Below, piece after piece: positions 55,449 to 64,000 of a stretch of DNA of 64,000 nucleotides (positions within the stretch are counted from its first letter, which is position 1; each line of letters begins with the position of its first letter). The notes beneath the pieces were generated by a model that saw only the letters and a list, made by a program, of their open reading frames with translations, was not told the DNA's origin and made no database searches. This DNA is from Roseibaca sp. Y0-43 (GTDB lineage: Bacteria > Pseudomonadota > Alphaproteobacteria > Rhodobacterales > Rhodobacteraceae): contig NZ_JAFMPR010000002.1 in the NCBI RefSeq assembly GCF_020667835.1, positions 186,001 to 250,000 of the forward strand, given 5' to 3'. The position numbers and the translations under genes are program-made.

Positions 55449-56494
<1,046 letters not shown>

Positions 56495-56498
<4 letters not shown>

Positions 56499-59218
56499 CC
56501 CGTTATCTTCGCCTCTCCGGTCTGGAACCTTTTGTCCTGACGCCCGACATTCCCTTCGTGAACGTGGGCGAGCGCACGAATGTCACCGGAAGCGCCAAGT
56601 TCCGCAAGCTGATCGTCAACCGCGACTATGCGACCGCGCTGGATGTCGCGCGCGAGCAGGTCGAAAACGGCGCGCAGATCATCGACGTGAACATGGACGA
56701 AGGGCTGATCGACAGCAAAAAGGCGATGGTCGAATTCCTGAACCTTGTCGCCGCAGAACCCGATATCGCCCGCGTGCCGATCATGATCGACAGCTCCAAA
56801 TGGGAGGTGATCGAGGCCGGCCTGCAATGCGTGCAGGGCAAATCAGTCGTGAACTCGATCTCCATGAAAGAAGGCGAGGACCAGTTCCGCGAACAGGCGC
56901 GGCTGTGCATGGCCTATGGCGCGGCGGTCGTGGTCATGGCCTTTGACGAGAAGGGGCAGGCCGACACGTTCGCGCGCAAGACCGAAATCTGCGCTCGCGC
57001 CTACCGCATCCTGACCGAAGAGGTGGGCTTTCCGCCCGAAGACATCATCTTCGACCCGAATATCTTTGCCGTCGCCACCGGCATCGAAGAGCATGACAAT
57101 TACGGCGTCGATTTCATCGAGGCCACGCGCTGGATACGCCAGAACCTGCCCCATGCGCATGTCTCGGGCGGCGTGTCGAACCTGTCCTTCAGCTTTCGCG
57201 GCAATGATACCGTGCGCGAAGCGATGCACGCGGTGTTCCTCTATCACGCCATCAAGGCGGGTATGGATATGGGGATCGTCAACGCGGGGCAATTGGCGGT
57301 CTATGACCAGATCGACCCGGACCTGCGCGAGGCCTGCGAGGACGTCGTTCTGAACCGCAAGCCCAAATCCGGCGGCACGGCCACCGAGAACCTGCTGGAC
57401 CTTGCCGACCGCTTCAAGGGCGGCAAGCGCGAGGAACGCGTGCGCGACCTCGCGTGGCGCGACTGGCCCATCGAAAAGCGGCTGGAACACGCGCTGGTCA
57501 ACGGTATCACCGAATTCATCGACGCCGATACCGAAGAAGCGCGTCTTGCCGCCGAACGCCCGCTCGACGTGATCGAGGGGCCGCTCATGGCCGGCATGAA
57601 CGTGGTGGGCGACCTGTTCGGCGCGGGCAAGATGTTCCTGCCGCAAGTGGTGAAATCGGCCCGCGTGATGAAACAGGCCGTGGCGGTGCTGCTGCCCTAT
57701 ATGGAAGAAGAAAAACGCCTGAACGGCGGCGAGGGGCGCCAGTCGGCGGGCAAGATCCTGATGGCCACCGTCAAGGGCGATGTGCATGACATCGGCAAGA
57801 ATATCGTCGGCGTCGTTCTGGCCTGCAACAATTTCGAAGTGATCGACCTGGGCGTCATGGTCCCGCCGCAAAAGATCTTGCAGGTGGCCAAGGACGAACA
57901 GGTCGATGCGATTGGCCTGTCGGGTCTGATTACACCGTCCCTGGACGAAATGGTGCATCTGGCGTCCGAGATGGAACGCGAAGGCATGGACCTGCCGCTG
58001 CTGATCGGGGGCGCGACCACGTCAAAAGTGCACACGGCGGTCAAGATCGCCCCGCGCTATTCCGGGCCTGCCGTCTATGTGCTGGATGCCAGCCGCGCCG
58101 TGGGCGTGGTCAGCAACCTTTTGTCACCCGCGAACAAGGCCGATTTCATCGCAGGCCTGAAAGCGGACTATGCCGAAGTCAGCGCCCGCCACGCCCGTGC
58201 CGAAGCCGCCAAGGACCGCCTGCCGCTGGCCAAGGCGCGCGAGAATGCGCTGACGCTCGACTGGGACAGCTACACGCCCACCGCGCCCAAATTCACCGGC
58301 ACCCGCGTGATCGACGATTGGGACTTGGCCGATCTGGCCGAGTATATCGACTGGACCCCCTTCTTCCAGACATGGGAAATGAAAGGCGTCTACCCGAAAA
58401 TCCTCGATGACCCGAAACAGGGCGAAGCCGCACGCGCGCTGCTGACCGATGCGCAAGCGATGCTGAAACGCATCATCGACGAGCGCTGGTTTACCCCCCG
58501 CGCCGTGCTGGGCTTCTGGCCCGCCAATGCGGTCGGCGACGATATCCGCCTGTTCACCGATGCGGCACGCGGCACGGAACTGGCCACGCTGCACACGCTG
58601 CGCCAGCAACACAGCAAACGGGCAGGGCGGCCCAATCTGGCACTGGCCGATTTCGTGGCACCTCAGGGCGTGGCCGACCATATCGGCGGCTTTGTCGTCA
58701 CGGCCGGCCCCGAAGAAACCGAGATCGCCGCCCGCTTCGACCGCGAGAACGACAATTACAGCGCCATCATGGTCAAGGCGCTGGCGGACCGTATCGCCGA
58801 GGCAATGGCCGAAGCGCTCCACGCCCGCGTGCGCCGCGACTATTGGGGCTACGCCCCGGATGAAAGCTTCACCCCGCAAGAGCTGATCGGCGAACCCTAT
58901 GCCGGCATCCGCCCCGCGCCGGGCTACCCGGCCCAGCCCGACCACACTGAAAAACGCACGCTGTTCAAGCTGTTGGATGCAGAGGCAACCACCGGCGTCA
59001 CCCTGACCGAAAGCATGGCGATGTGGCCGGGATCGTCGGTCTCCGGCCTCTATATCGGGCATCCGGACAGCTATTATTTCGGCGTGGCAAAGGTTGAACG
59101 CGACCAGGTTGCGGATTACGCGGCACGCAAGGGCATGGACCTGTCCGAGGCTGAACGCTGGCTGGCCCCGGTGCTGAATTACGACCCGGCGGCGAAAGCC
59201 AAGGTCGCAGCGGAATAA
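56495..59218 (+). CDS. metH2: Methionine synthase, folate/cobalamin/activation part
   Basis: A 907-residue protein containing the rest of MetH in order. The pterin-binding domain has [19 protein letters not shown]. The cap domain lies around [11 protein letters not shown]. The B12-binding domain has DVHDIGKN with His431 as cobalt ligand, and the C-terminal activation domain (about 580-900) binds SAM ([22 protein letters not shown]). It moves methyl from methyltetrahydrofolate to cobalamin and on to homocysteine held by the first protein. The 4-nt overlap implies equal synthesis. Confidence 0.94.
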
Positions 59219-60028: not shown

Positions 60029-60193
60029 TCCTGACGGATCGCGCCCTTCAAGCCGCCCCCAAGGGGGCGGTTCAATTTTGTGCCCAAGCTGCCGCGACAC
60101 ACAATATTTTGCGGCCCGCCCCGGAAATCGGCATTGGCAGGTATTTCTTTCGCCTTTATGGTCAGCGCAAAGCAATGGACCAAGGCAAGACCA

Positions 60194-61396
60194 ATGGCCC
60201 GATCCCAGTTTGGGGCCCAGTTTGGGGCAAAAACGCAGTTTTCCAGGCCCGTGCGGCAGATCACCCTGATGCTTCTTGTCATCGCTTTGGTGGCCATCGG
60301 ATCTTATTTCGCCTTCCCGCGCGTCTCTGGCATTTTCCTTGCGAATGTCTGGCTCAACGGGGTGATTTTCCTCGTCTTCATCATCGGCGTTCTGGCGACC
60401 ATCTGGCAAGTTATCCAGCTGAACCGCTCGATCGTCTGGATCGAGGGCTTCGCCGCCGAACGCGTGGGCCATGAGGCGACGGTGCCGCCGGGCTTGCTGG
60501 TGCCGCTGGCGGCATTGCTGCGCGGGCGGGGCAGGGGGGCGCAGATCGGCTCTGCCTCGGCGCAATCCATTCTTGAGTCGGTCGCCACACGGCTGGACGA
60601 ATTGCGCGACATCACGCGCTACATCATCAGCCTGCTGATTTTCCTGGGCCTTCTGGGCACGTTCTACGGGCTGGCCACGACCGTGCCGGCGGTGGTGGAA
60701 ACCATCCGCTCGCTTGCCCCGGACGACTCGCAAACCGGGATCGAGGTCTTCGCCAACCTCATGTCGGGGCTAGAGGCACAGCTGGGCGGCATGGGCACGG
60801 CGTTTTCCTCGTCGCTTCTGGGGCTTGCGGGGTCGCTGGTCGTGGGCTTGCTGGAGTTGTTCGCAGGCCATGGCCAGAACCGCTTTTACCGTCAGCTGGA
60901 AGAATGGCTGTCCTCGATCACCCGGCTTGGCTTTGCCGGTGGCGAGGTCGAGCAGGGGCAAGAACTTGGTGCCATCGTGCAGGTGCTCGATTCCATGGCC
61001 GAGCAGATGGAGGCAATGCGCCGCCAGCAGCTTCAGGCCGATACAGAGCGCGCGCAACTCGATCAGGCGCTTGGCCTGCTGGTCGAAGCGATCGACCGCC
61101 TTGCCGCGGGTGGCATGGGCGGGGCCGAACCGACGCTGGAGCGTATCGCCGCCAGCCAGGAACAGATCCTGTCCTATTACCAGCGCGAGGACGCGCAAGG
61201 CGGCCCGCATTCAGATGCCGAGATCCGACTGCGGCTGCGCAATATCGACAGCCAGCTTCTGCGCATCGCCGAAGAACTCTCGGCGGGACGGCTGGAAACC
61301 ACGGCCGATTTGCGCTCTGACCTCTCGACTCTGACCTTGGCGGTGCGGCAATTGTCGCGCGGTGGCTTTGGCGCGCCGCGCAAGGACGGGGGCTAG
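60194..61396 (+). CDS. MotA/TolQ/ExbB-like ion-channel protein
   Basis: A 400-residue inner-membrane protein. Predicted helices are at about 22-41, 54-75, 143-168 and 200-224. The last two match the MotA/TolQ/ExbB pore (IISLLIFLGLLGTFYGLATTVPAVVETI and GMGTAFSSSLLGLAGSLVVGLLELF). A long helical cytoplasmic C-terminus (about 240-400) follows. It should pair with the next gene as a proton-driven stator or motor. The start at 60194 gives MARSQFGAQFGAKTQFSRPVRQ after AAGG; earlier in-frame ATGs lack ribosome sites. Not flagellar MotA: the sequence is closer to the ExbB-like group of this order. Confidence 0.85.
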   Translation: MARSQFGAQFGAKTQFSRPVRQITLMLLVIALVAIGSYFAFPRVSGIFLANVWLNGVIFLVFIIGVLATIWQVIQLNRSIVWIEGFAAERVGHEATVPPGLLVPLAALLRGRGRGAQIGSASAQSILESVATRLDELRDITRYIISLLIFLGLLGTFYGLATTVPAVVETIRSLAPDDSQTGIEVFANLMSGLEAQLGGMGTAFSSSLLGLAGSLVVGLLELFAGHGQNRFYRQLEEWLSSITRLGFAGGEVEQGQELGAIVQVLDSMAEQMEAMRRQQLQADTERAQLDQALGLLVEAIDRLAAGGMGGAEPTLERIAASQEQILSYYQREDAQGGPHSDAEIRLRLRNIDSQLLRIAEELSAGRLETTADLRSDLSTLTLAVRQLSRGGFGAPRKDGG

Positions 61397-61398
61397 GC

Positions 61399-63108
61399 AT
61401 GGCGCTGTCACGCAGGGGCAGCCAACGCGATGTCAGCGGCGCGATCTGGCCGGGCTTTGTCGATGCGATGACGGCCCTTTTGCTGGTGCTGATGTTCGTG
61501 CTCTCGATCTTCATGATCGTGCAATTCGTGCTGCGCGACACGATCAGCGCGCAGGACACGCAACTGGAAGGGCTGAGCGCAGAGGTCGCGCAACTGGCGA
61601 ATGCCTTGGGCCTGTCGCGGGCGCGCGTGGCCAATCTGGAAAGCGAAGTGTCGGGGTTGCGCGCGGACCTTGGCGGGGCAGAGGCGCAGATCTCGGCACA
61701 GCTTGCAACCATCGCGGGCTTGACCCGCGATCTTGCGGCAAGCGAGGACGACTTGGCGAGTGCGCGCGCGCAGATCACCGATTTCGAAGCGCAGGTCGCC
61801 GCCCTGATCGGGGCGCGTGACAGCGCCTTGGCCGAAGGGCAGGCCTTGCGCGCGGACCTGGCCGAGTTGGAAGCGGCGCAAGCGGTGCTGATCGACGAGC
61901 AAGAGGCGCTGCAACTGGCACTGGCCAATCTGCGCACCGAACTGGACGCAGAGGCAGAGGCCGCGCGCTTGGCCGCGGCCCGCGCCGATGCGGTCGAAGC
62001 GGCGCTCGCAGATGCGCAGGCCGAAGCCGCCGGGCGCGATGCGACGCTGGCGCAAATGGCCAACCTTCTGGACGAGGCCGAAGCCGCGCGTCTGGCCGAA
62101 GCGGCGGCGGCGGAAGCCCTGCGCGCGCGCTTGGCCGATGTGGAAACCGCGCTCAGTGACGAAGAACAGACCCGGCTGGCAGAGGCCGCCGCTGCCGAAG
62201 CCCTGCGTGCACGTCTGGAAGAGGCCGATACCGAATTGACCGCGCTGACCTTGGCGCTGGAAGCCGAGCGCGCGCGCGCCGAGGAAACGCTGACGCTTCT
62301 GGCCGCCGCCCGCGCGGCGCAGGCAGAGCTGGAGGCCGATCTGCAGGCCGAGACCACCGCCCGCGACCGCGAGGCGGCGCTTTTGGCCATGGCGCGCCAG
62401 ACCTTGGCCGAGCAGGACGCCGCCAGCGCTGACGATGCGCGGCGGTTGGAATTGCTGAACCAGCAGGTCGCGGCGCTGCGCGGTCAGGTTGGCGGCTTGC
62501 AAGACCTGCTGGGCGAGGCCCGTGCGCGCGAGGATGCGGCGAATACGCAGATCGAGGCGCTTGGCGCCGATCTGAACCTTGCGTTGGCGGAACTGGCCGC
62601 CGAGCAAAAGGCCCGTGCCGATCTGGAAGCGGCAGAGCGCGCGCGGCTGGAGCGCTTCCAGTCGGAATTTTTCGGGCGGCTGCGCGATGTGCTGGAAGGG
62701 CGCGACGAGATCCAGATCGTGGGCGACCGTTTCGTGTTTTCGTCAGAGGTGCTGTTCGAACTCGGTTCTGCCGATCTGGCCGCCGAGGGCCGCGCGCAGA
62801 TCACCAATGTGGTGAATATCCTGCGCGAGGTGTCTGACCGCATCCCCGACGACATCGACTGGATTTTGCGGGTCGATGGGCATACCGACAATCTGGCGCT
62901 GGCACCGGGGGCCGAATTTGCCGACAACTGGGAGCTGAGCCAAGCCCGCGCGCTGTCGGTCGTGCGCTTCATGACAGAAAGCCTTGGCTTTCCGCCGGAA
63001 CGGTTGGCGGCCACCGGTTTTGGCGAATACCGTCCCGTGAACACGGCCAACACGCCAGAGGCGCGGGCGCAGAACCGCCGGATCGAGTTGAAGCTGACCG
63101 AGCGTTAA
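61399..63108 (+). CDS. MotB/OmpA-like protein with very long coiled coil
   Basis: A 569-residue protein. One N-terminal helix (about 19-45) carries Asp22 in GFVDAMTALLLVLMFVL, matching the proton-carrying aspartate of MotB. Residues about 50-425 are an almost unbroken Ala/Glu/Leu-rich coiled coil that includes a 28-residue repeat (LAEAAAAEALRARL at 232-245 and 260-273). The C-terminus (about 445-569) is an OmpA peptidoglycan-binding domain (VLFELGSADL, VDGHTDN, NWELSQARALSVVRFM, ARAQNRRIELKL). It starts 2 nt after its partner. The coil could span the periplasm. Its stop overlaps fliG by 4 nt. Confidence 0.87.
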   Translation: MALSRRGSQRDVSGAIWPGFVDAMTALLLVLMFVLSIFMIVQFVLRDTISAQDTQLEGLSAEVAQLANALGLSRARVANLESEVSGLRADLGGAEAQISAQLATIAGLTRDLAASEDDLASARAQITDFEAQVAALIGARDSALAEGQALRADLAELEAAQAVLIDEQEALQLALANLRTELDAEAEAARLAAARADAVEAALADAQAEAAGRDATLAQMANLLDEAEAARLAEAAAAEALRARLADVETALSDEEQTRLAEAAAAEALRARLEEADTELTALTLALEAERARAEETLTLLAAARAAQAELEADLQAETTARDREAALLAMARQTLAEQDAASADDARRLELLNQQVAALRGQVGGLQDLLGEARAREDAANTQIEALGADLNLALAELAAEQKARADLEAAERARLERFQSEFFGRLRDVLEGRDEIQIVGDRFVFSSEVLFELGSADLAAEGRAQITNVVNILREVSDRIPDDIDWILRVDGHTDNLALAPGAEFADNWELSQARALSVVRFMTESLGFPPERLAATGFGEYRPVNTANTPEARAQNRRIELKLTER

Positions 63109-64000
63109 TCCTCCTCTTCCTCGTGCTTGATTAGCGTGATCGTGCCCGCATCCGCCATCGCGCGCACCGCGCCCGCGACGCGGGATTGCGCGGCGTCGAG
63201 CGCCTTGGCCGTCGGGCGGGGCAGGGTGGCCGCATCTTCACGCAGCCCTTCGGCCAGACGTTTGCTCATGTTGGACAGCAAGAATTCCATCGTCGGGGTG
63301 CAGCCGGGGTCTTGCGCGGCAAGGATCAGGCGCAGATCATCCTCGGCCACCGCGCGCACGACACTGGCCACATCGCGCGGATTGACCCGCGCCGGGATGT
63401 CCTGAAAGGTGAAGATCGCCTTGCGCACGCCGGTGGCGAAGGCCGCATCCGACCGCTCCAACCCTTGCAGCAGTTCGTCGCGCAAACCGGCGGCGGTAGA
63501 GTTCAGAATTTCGCCCACACGCCGGGTCGAGGGGGTGGCAAAGGCGCGCGCGGGTTTGTCACGCAGCTGTTCGGCCAGCGCCGCGCCAATGCGCGCCACG
63601 GCATCGGGCGCGATGGTTTCAGTGCGCGCGACCGCCAGCGCCAGCACTTGCGCCAGATCGCCGGGCAGCGCGGCCAGAAGGCCCGCCGCCTTTTCGGTGC
63701 TCAGCTTCGACAGAACGACCGCTCCCACGACCGTGCTTTCCTGCTGAAGGATGCGCAACAGCTCTGCATCATCGGCCAATTCGATATCGGTCCAGGGGTC
63801 GGCCCCATCGCCGCCGCGCGCGAGCGCACGTAACTGCTTGGTGGCCTGCGCATCCAGCTTGCCATCCAGCAGTTTCAACGCCTCTTCCAAACTGTCGGGA
63901 AAGGACAGCCCGACCTGTTCCAGCATCTCGACGAATTCCTCGACCACCGCGCACATGGTGGGCCGGTCGATCAGCCGCAAGGACGCCAGCGCGCGCGTCA
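63105..64000 (-). CDS. fliG: Flagellar motor switch protein FliG-like (5' end beyond window)
   Basis: At least 298 codons are visible; the frame is open at the right edge. The middle domain has EVEEFV-type helices and STVVGAVVLSKLSTEKAAGLLAALPGDLAQ. The C-terminal torque domain has RKAIFTFQDIPARVNPRDVASVVRAVAEDDLRLILAA and GCTPTMEFLLSNMSKRLAEGLREDAA. It ends with an acidic tail, IKHEEEED. FliG couples stator torque to the rotor and controls switching. This copy is divergent from E. coli FliG. It converges with the OmpA-like gene with a 4-nt overlap. Confidence 0.8.
   Translation of the reverse strand, partial: TRALASLRLIDRPTMCAVVEEFVEMLEQVGLSFPDSLEEALKLLDGKLDAQATKQLRALARGGDGADPWTDIELADDAELLRILQQESTVVGAVVLSKLSTEKAAGLLAALPGDLAQVLALAVARTETIAPDAVARIGAALAEQLRDKPARAFATPSTRRVGEILNSTAAGLRDELLQGLERSDAAFATGVRKAIFTFQDIPARVNPRDVASVVRAVAEDDLRLILAAQDPGCTPTMEFLLSNMSKRLAEGLREDAATLPRPTAKALDAAQSRVAGAVRAMADAGTITLIKHEEEED

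Follow-up and report, generated by a model that had tools for sequence, protein, structure and literature searches.

A conserved, apparently unstudied gene pair for a probable A-B motor, with a long coiled coil, in Alphaproteobacteria

The A-B locus and its products

Ion-driven A-B motors form a small, much studied set made up of the flagellar stator and the Ton, Tol, gliding and Zorya systems. We describe here an A-B gene pair of Roseibaca sp. Y0-43, carried on a stretch of 64,000 nucleotides (hereafter the window; contig C22, positions 186001-250000) of a 3.03 Mb genome in 54 contigs, in which flagellar genes are present. The pair is real and conserved and belongs to a known kind of machine; it is apparently unstudied, and has an unusual, measurable feature in the long coiled coil of its B subunit. 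An initial annotation, made from the letters of the window, had placed two genes at 60194-63108, and both lie at these coordinates, on the forward strand and two bases apart; the start codon of A is uncertain, its open frame beginning upstream, with a GTG at 60080. The features of the locus are the following (window coordinates).

60194..61396, + strand: A subunit, 400 amino acids, predicted TolQ/ExbB/ZorA-fold channel protein
61399..63108, + strand: B subunit, 569 amino acids, NF006542 (PRK09039.1-1) 'peptidoglycan-binding protein', 721.5 bits
61462..61464, + strand: Asp22 of B (motif WPGFVDA), presumed to carry the ion; 28/28 aligned sequences
61534..62694, + strand: coiled coil of B, residues 46-432; single heptad register in the tested part (46-402), proline-free over 46-420
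62089..62217, + strand: duplication of 28 residues (84 bp) in B, with RLAEAAAAEALRARL repeated exactly at residues 231 and 259
62752..63078, + strand: OmpA/MotB-type putative peptidoglycan-binding domain, residues 452-560 of B; PF00691, E = 3e-17
63105..64000, - strand: fliG, converging on B; sole FliG_C match in the genome, continuing past the window (369 amino acids in total)

The coil of B is real, and its register is unbroken over the part tested. Hydrophobicity along the protein follows a period of 3.5 residues (equalled by 1 of 500 shuffles), the best a/d phase is identical in 16/16 overlapping 42-residue segments covering residues 46-402 (357 residues), and proline is absent from residues 46-420. 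AlphaFold2 renders B as a continuous helix from residue 20 to 432 followed by the OmpA domain (mean predicted local distance difference test, pLDDT, 74.8; predicted template modelling score 0.36), with low confidence in residues 221-300 (block means 46-62). The long coil of the initial annotation is thereby upheld, and its length is revised from 375 to about 387 residues (46-432), that is 57.5 nm if straight, at 0.1485 nm per residue. The 28-residue duplication reported there is the top self-match of B, with a score of 239 against 199 for the best of 200 register-keeping shuffles.

On either side of the coil, B resembles MotB, as had been proposed. It has a single membrane helix with the invariant Asp22 at its start, within a W-P-G-x-x-D motif that is likewise invariant in the alignment. 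Among solved structures, its OmpA domain is nearest by sequence to the domains of MotB, PomB and MotS (best E = 5.8e-27), and its residues D497 and R517, which we take to be the ligand-contacting Asp and Arg of peptidoglycan-binding OmpA-like domains, are invariant in 28/28 sequences. The MotB_plug model (PF13677) does not match B. The NCBIfam match of the whole protein to NF006542 lies far above the cut-off (388 bits; E = 1.2e-216); the series NF006542-NF006546 (PRK09039) has a family name, and a search of open PMC papers brought up no described function for it.

Hydrophobic stretches of A, delimited by eye, lie at approximately residues 24-42, 56-77, 143-163 and 200-223, and are followed by a helical tail (residues 257-388) that is presumably cytoplasmic. 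The AlphaFold2 model of A (52 sequences; mean pLDDT 82.4) renders residues 20-87 as a single helix despite the two hydrophobic stretches there. When this model was compared with known structures by VIA-align, TolQ (Z = 11.5, root-mean-square deviation 3.9 Å, 192 residues aligned), ExbB (Z = 11.3, 4.2 Å, 184 aligned) and ZorA (Z = 11.0, 4.0 Å, 192 aligned) were tied as its matches, and MotA gave Z = 9.2 (4.5 Å, 190 aligned). The top 23 matches were all TolQ, ExbB or ZorA (Z 9.9-11.5, 181-236 residues aligned), with deviations of 3.6-5.3 Å, bar one ZorA entry at 29.8 Å. In the alignment of A, the glycine, threonine and serine motifs of the membrane helices are invariant, as are T156 and S207; Thr and Ser residues of this kind face the Asp in TolQ and ExbB. 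Nearly invariant residues also occur in the tail (D341, R349, D352, E360, R366 and R374). The predicted model supports a TolQ/MotA-superfamily fold for A, in agreement with the initial annotation. In NCBIfam, A was matched only weakly, by ZorA models and one chance-like domain, and its profile, searched against solved structures, gave coiled-coil matches to the tail only and no channel.

Conservation and coil length among relatives

The pair is nearly universal in the family sample, which comprised 148 genomes sampled from the order and labelled without exception as one family: B scored above the NF006542 cut-off in 147/148, and A was found in 147/148 and in 72/72 genera. In a gene-neighbourhood survey such as the initial annotation had suggested, A and B were adjacent in 100/100 family loci (95 genomes) and, in a second set, in 74 of the 76 loci that yielded B; the two loci not scored as adjacent have a 469-base gap (L204) and an open-frame overlap outside the rule (L244). 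In the class sample, NF006543 was above its cut-off in 140/240 genomes, and none of 14 named control genomes, including Escherichia coli and Caulobacter vibrioides, was above the NF006542 or NF006543 cut-off. The profile of A (E = 1e-10) matched 69/299 proteobacterial genomes of a phylum sample, 59 of them in the class, with five strong and five weak matches outside it; the five weak ones proved in every case to be a type III ZorA of Zorya (814-1293 bits). We found no study of the pair in open PMC papers, in keeping with the earlier suggestion of an uncharacterised envelope motor of this order; its restriction to the order did not hold, relatives occurring throughout the class.

Among the strong relatives of A outside the class, L276, L277, L278 and L279 (genomes G636, G521, G444 and G540; E 9e-97 to 3e-143) were inspected as loci, and in L276, L278 and L279 a B-like frame with the motif WPG(F/Y)VDA adjoins A; these out-of-class relatives suggest transfer or misplaced genomes. 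Five genomes (G378, G277, G162, G372 and G269) have two B-type genes each, near or above the NF006543 cut-off, so that the motor has paralogues in places within the class. A divergent pair of reversed order was also seen (L286, G624), in which a 261-residue, apparently coil-less B precedes a 573-residue A, beside an apparent ATP-binding cassette (ABC) exporter recognised by eye.

To compare coil lengths, we measured the distance in B from Asp22 to the glycine of a conserved LGxxLNxAL motif, which served as anchor. The class set of 90 loci gave 80 distances, 10 lacking a recognised anchor. The family set of 70 loci gave 63, after removal of one without anchor and six repeat C-termini (five from genomes fetched twice), the window protein being excluded. 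The second set consisted of named records, many from Rhodospirillales; its 80 loci gave 69 distances (four without B, at contig ends or not found, six without anchor and one repeat), with a slightly looser anchor pattern and including one distance of 66, a probable false anchor that falls in the favoured class described below.

The distances range from 142 to 824 residues overall, the longest coil reaching about 122 nm if straight. The window coil, presented earlier as far longer than in MotB or TolR, is ordinary in length within its own family. The freedom of length extends much less to register. Outside the family (142-445 residues), 56/80 distances equal 3 modulo 7, where chance would give about 11, and the same class holds 25/43 of the different lengths. 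In the second set it holds 54/69 distances and 28/40 different lengths; this set partly overlaps the first (at least two genomes, L206/L161 and L197/L138) and is not fully independent, so the 24 lengths absent from the first class set were counted separately, and 15 of them fall in the favoured class. A stricter anchor pattern gave 21/28, and 27/64 with the window. Moduli 5, 6, 8, 9, 10 and 11 showed no significant preference, and 14 was significant, as follows from 7. Phase shifts of +4 occur in the long coils of L055, L063, L064 and L175, and other long coils are less regular; the +4 step is a stutter that allows a coiled coil to continue.

Tandem duplications obey the same unit. Tandem Repeats Finder, run on 237 B genes (including genomes fetched twice), returned periods of 21, 42, 84, 105 and 168 bp, and 69/87 arrays with a period of at least 18 bp are multiples of 21 bp. 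A heptad coil by itself favours 21-bp periods, which makes the arrays with a period of at least 30 bp the stronger evidence, and 20/22 of these are multiples of 21 bp; the duplication in the window is one such case. With length free and one modulo-7 class favoured, the continuity of the coil seems to be selected and its length not. What is new here is the heptad register, unbroken over the tested part of the window protein, the modulo-7 preference in length, and long tandem duplications that are nearly always multiples of seven residues. Conserved ends of B, with a middle free in length and much less so in register, are the pattern that a continuous coiled-coil shaft would show.

The genes around the pair vary. 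The next gene beyond the range quoted in the initial annotation is fliG, of which no other copy was found in the genome; it overlaps the final four bases of B and sits outside the flagellar cluster read on contig C54. We regard it as a neighbour and did not judge it part of the A-B system. Upstream of the pair in the window genome are DUF2852 and metH, the latter split over two open frames at 55449-59218, one of 349 amino acids that was named by eye and one of 907 that was named by Pfam. The usual setting in the family is a ChaC-like gene directly upstream on the same strand (38/40 loci); the family loci that were read completely have hisC, tyrC, an extensin-like gene and DUF2125 on the upstream side and clpA and gloB on the downstream side, with hisC, tyrC and gloB named by eye. 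In other loci, the gene directly upstream of A codes for a proline-rich protein that looks secreted and has an OmpA domain at its C-terminus (PF00691, 4e-14 in L285). This arrangement was found in 55/80 named loci by BLAST and in 43/80 by stricter clustering (L181-L260; another example is L285:334-1575), and the protein is a candidate third component. A profile of it (A4) gave six weak matches among 61 genomes of the window's family and none in the window genome, so that no such component was found there.

A probable envelope motor and its alternatives

We consider it probable, though by no great distance, that A and B form an ion-driven motor in the inner membrane, akin to TolQR, ExbBD, ZorAB and MotAB, which serves the alphaproteobacterial envelope in a housekeeping capacity. 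From the invariant Asp22 of B, together with T156 and S207 of A, we infer an ion-driven motor that would turn or pull against the wall. By analogy, five A subunits would surround two B helices, and ions passing via Asp22 would make A rotate around B. Both B chains would join in one parallel coiled coil ending in two putative wall-binding domains, and the coil may then act as a stiff shaft or tether, carrying torque or tension between membrane and wall. The periplasm is about 20-30 nm wide. As straight coils of 57 to about 120 nm exceed this width, the long ones must run at a slant, or follow or encircle the wall layer, and length is not a simple ruler. The most likely use of such a motor would be to maintain the envelope mechanically as cells grow and divide, in parallel to Tol-Pal.

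Several observations weigh against this interpretation. For the fold of A, a designed three-helix bundle scores Z = 9.3 (5.0 Å, 181 aligned), above MotA, and so marks the background; Foldseek places TolQ, ZorA and ExbB first, yet with a best E of only 0.011; A has no Pfam match, MotA_ExbB (PF01618) included; and hhalign of its profile against the MotA and ExbB of the same genome gave probabilities of 0.3 and 1.3 per cent. The 5:2 assembly is an argument by analogy. As to distribution, one family genome (G006), estimated to be 100 per cent complete, is without A and matches the B model only weakly, FliG being present, and 100/240 class genomes were not above the NF006543 cut-off. Within the family, where the longest coils lie, the heptad rule holds much less well (227-824 residues; 26/63 distances, 18/52 different lengths); with both sets pooled, the favoured class holds 37/88 different lengths. 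Moreover, the sequences are related, so that binomial p-values overstate certainty, and control distances within A are themselves uneven modulo 7 in raw counts (32/74, 27/61 and 18/56). As this unevenness reflects relatedness, we relied on the number of different lengths per class and on the results for the other moduli; among the different lengths of the controls, which are few (13, 7 and 12), no modulo-7 class was prominent, and the class-level control in the tail of A had just one usable sequence.

Among the alternatives, B might be a wall sensor, unbound at rest, whose OmpA domain captures peptidoglycan once the wall shifts or suffers damage, opening the ion path while the presumably cytoplasmic tail of A signals, in a Zorya-like but housekeeping manner. 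ZorA and ZorB are the closest by sequence to A and B among the families met, the tail of A carries nearly invariant residues, and a scheme with resting and engaged states has been proposed for ZorAB (PMC11890865, in the part consulted). Against the sensor, no gene for a cytoplasmic partner was found to recur in every order, the neighbours differing between the family and the second set; we regard it as unlikely, if the most serious of the rivals. A passive tether, in which B would hold the membrane to the wall and A would only stabilise it without ion flow, draws on the best-supported parts of the system, the OmpA domain and the coil. The invariant D22, the W-P-G-x-x-D motif and the membrane-helix motifs of A are not needed by a tether, and we find it improbable.

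Still less probability attaches to a role in anti-phage defence of the Zorya kind. The likeness to ZorAB pointed out in the initial annotation is borne out by PADLOC, where ZorA and ZorB models lead the matches (A to ZorA1, 46.9 bits; B to ZorB3, 83.2 bits), and by the type III ZorA proteins as nearest outsiders of A. On the other hand, A scores 15.1 bits against an NCBIfam ZorA cut-off of 500, and its presence in nearly all of the family sample is that of a core gene, unlike that of a sporadic defence island. The absence of zorC, zorD and zorE was likewise borne out: scanned with PADLOC, nine neighbouring proteins matched no Zorya model (one ABC ATPase matched ATPase models, e.g. mad3 at 70.5 bits), and ZorC, ZorD and ZorE were not among the recurrent neighbours of 40 family loci. 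Finally, it is B, on the periplasmic side, that carries the long coil, and not A. On these grounds Zorya was rejected.

Least probable of all, in our view, is a second flagellar stator acting on the neighbouring FliG. The resemblance of A and B to MotA and MotB, and the adjoining position of the genome's only FliG_C match, speak for it; the genome has, however, its own flagellar motA (C54) and its own motB with plug (C2), and A and B are retained in 8/8 family genomes without a FliG_C match (of 148). Nor is the proximity general: fliG lies within 20 kb of the pair in at least six genomes (G000, G012, G022, G048, G054 and G113) of about 131, as read by eye from tables in which about eight genomes with both genes had no listed position. 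Recomputed distances covered 41 position pairs, 40 on the same contig and one on two contigs. The flagellar link through the converging fliG was rejected for this rarity. In Phaeobacter, fliG is also far from the flagellar cluster, and a transposon screen for motility recovered fliG and motB, the main text mentioning neither TolQ, OmpA nor peptidoglycan (PMC12363192); an essential gene could not have been found in such a screen.

A fuller version of the favoured motor can be put forward tentatively, at somewhat less than even odds in our judgement. The pair would be a core rotary motor of Alphaproteobacteria and the housekeeping relative of Zorya, driving or tensioning the wall by a two-stranded shaft of about 20-120 nm; the shaft would lengthen and shorten through tandem duplication, in steps of 7, 14 and 28 residues, since a broken register would break the transmission of torque, and the secreted OmpA-domain protein would be a third, outer component in a Rhodospirillales-type branch. 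If the motor is real, it would fill a gap in what is described of the envelope of a large group: an additional A-B system, present in almost every genome of the family sample and frequent among other Alphaproteobacteria, whose shaft exceeds the width of the periplasm. The preference for heptads bears on whether the coiled coil passes rotation or only holds.

Relation to known systems

An earlier study sorts A-B motors into a flagellar and a generic group and counts proteins of unknown function among the generic motors; the term 'Alphaproteobacteria' is absent from its main text (PMC12505986). Tol-Pal offers the first comparison. Like TolQR(A)-Pal, the pair has the same predicted fold in A and a presumed link to the wall, and the long helical arm of TolA across the periplasm recalls the B coil; in contrast, B carries its own terminal OmpA/MotB domain. 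That the pair is an ordinary TolQR substitute, the possibility raised in the initial annotation against its own proposal, is argued against by a separate tolQ-tolR-tolA-tolB-pal operon elsewhere in the genome (contig C11; gene names assigned by eye, those of TolQ and Pal being supported by Pfam), and was rejected. The Rgs proteins of polar growth in Sinorhizobium were considered because of their contacts with Tol-Pal, and were rejected, none of those described in the part of the source consulted, which covers both systems, having the layout of A or B (PMC7327166).

With MotAB and PomAB, the pair shares the OmpA-type domain of B, nearest to those of MotB, PomB and MotS among solved structures, and differs in having a coil in place of plug and linker. 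The closest comparison is with ZorAB. Taken together, the weak out-of-class matches, all of them type III ZorA, and the NCBIfam ZorA_4 model, weakly matched by 12/21 aligned family members of A (best E = 2.5e-6), suggest that ZorA (type III) is the nearest known relative of A among the families met, a closeness that bears on the origin of the Zorya motor. Both systems have a two-gene core, the same predicted A fold, and a MotB-like B with a membrane-helix Asp and an OmpA-type domain. According to the part of the study consulted, ZorAB is a 5:2 complex in which ZorB D24 and wall binding are required, and its long tail belongs to ZorA and is cytoplasmic (PMC11890865). In the A-B pair, by contrast, the long coil belongs to B and would lie on the periplasmic side, the distribution is that of a core system, and no effector genes were found beside it.

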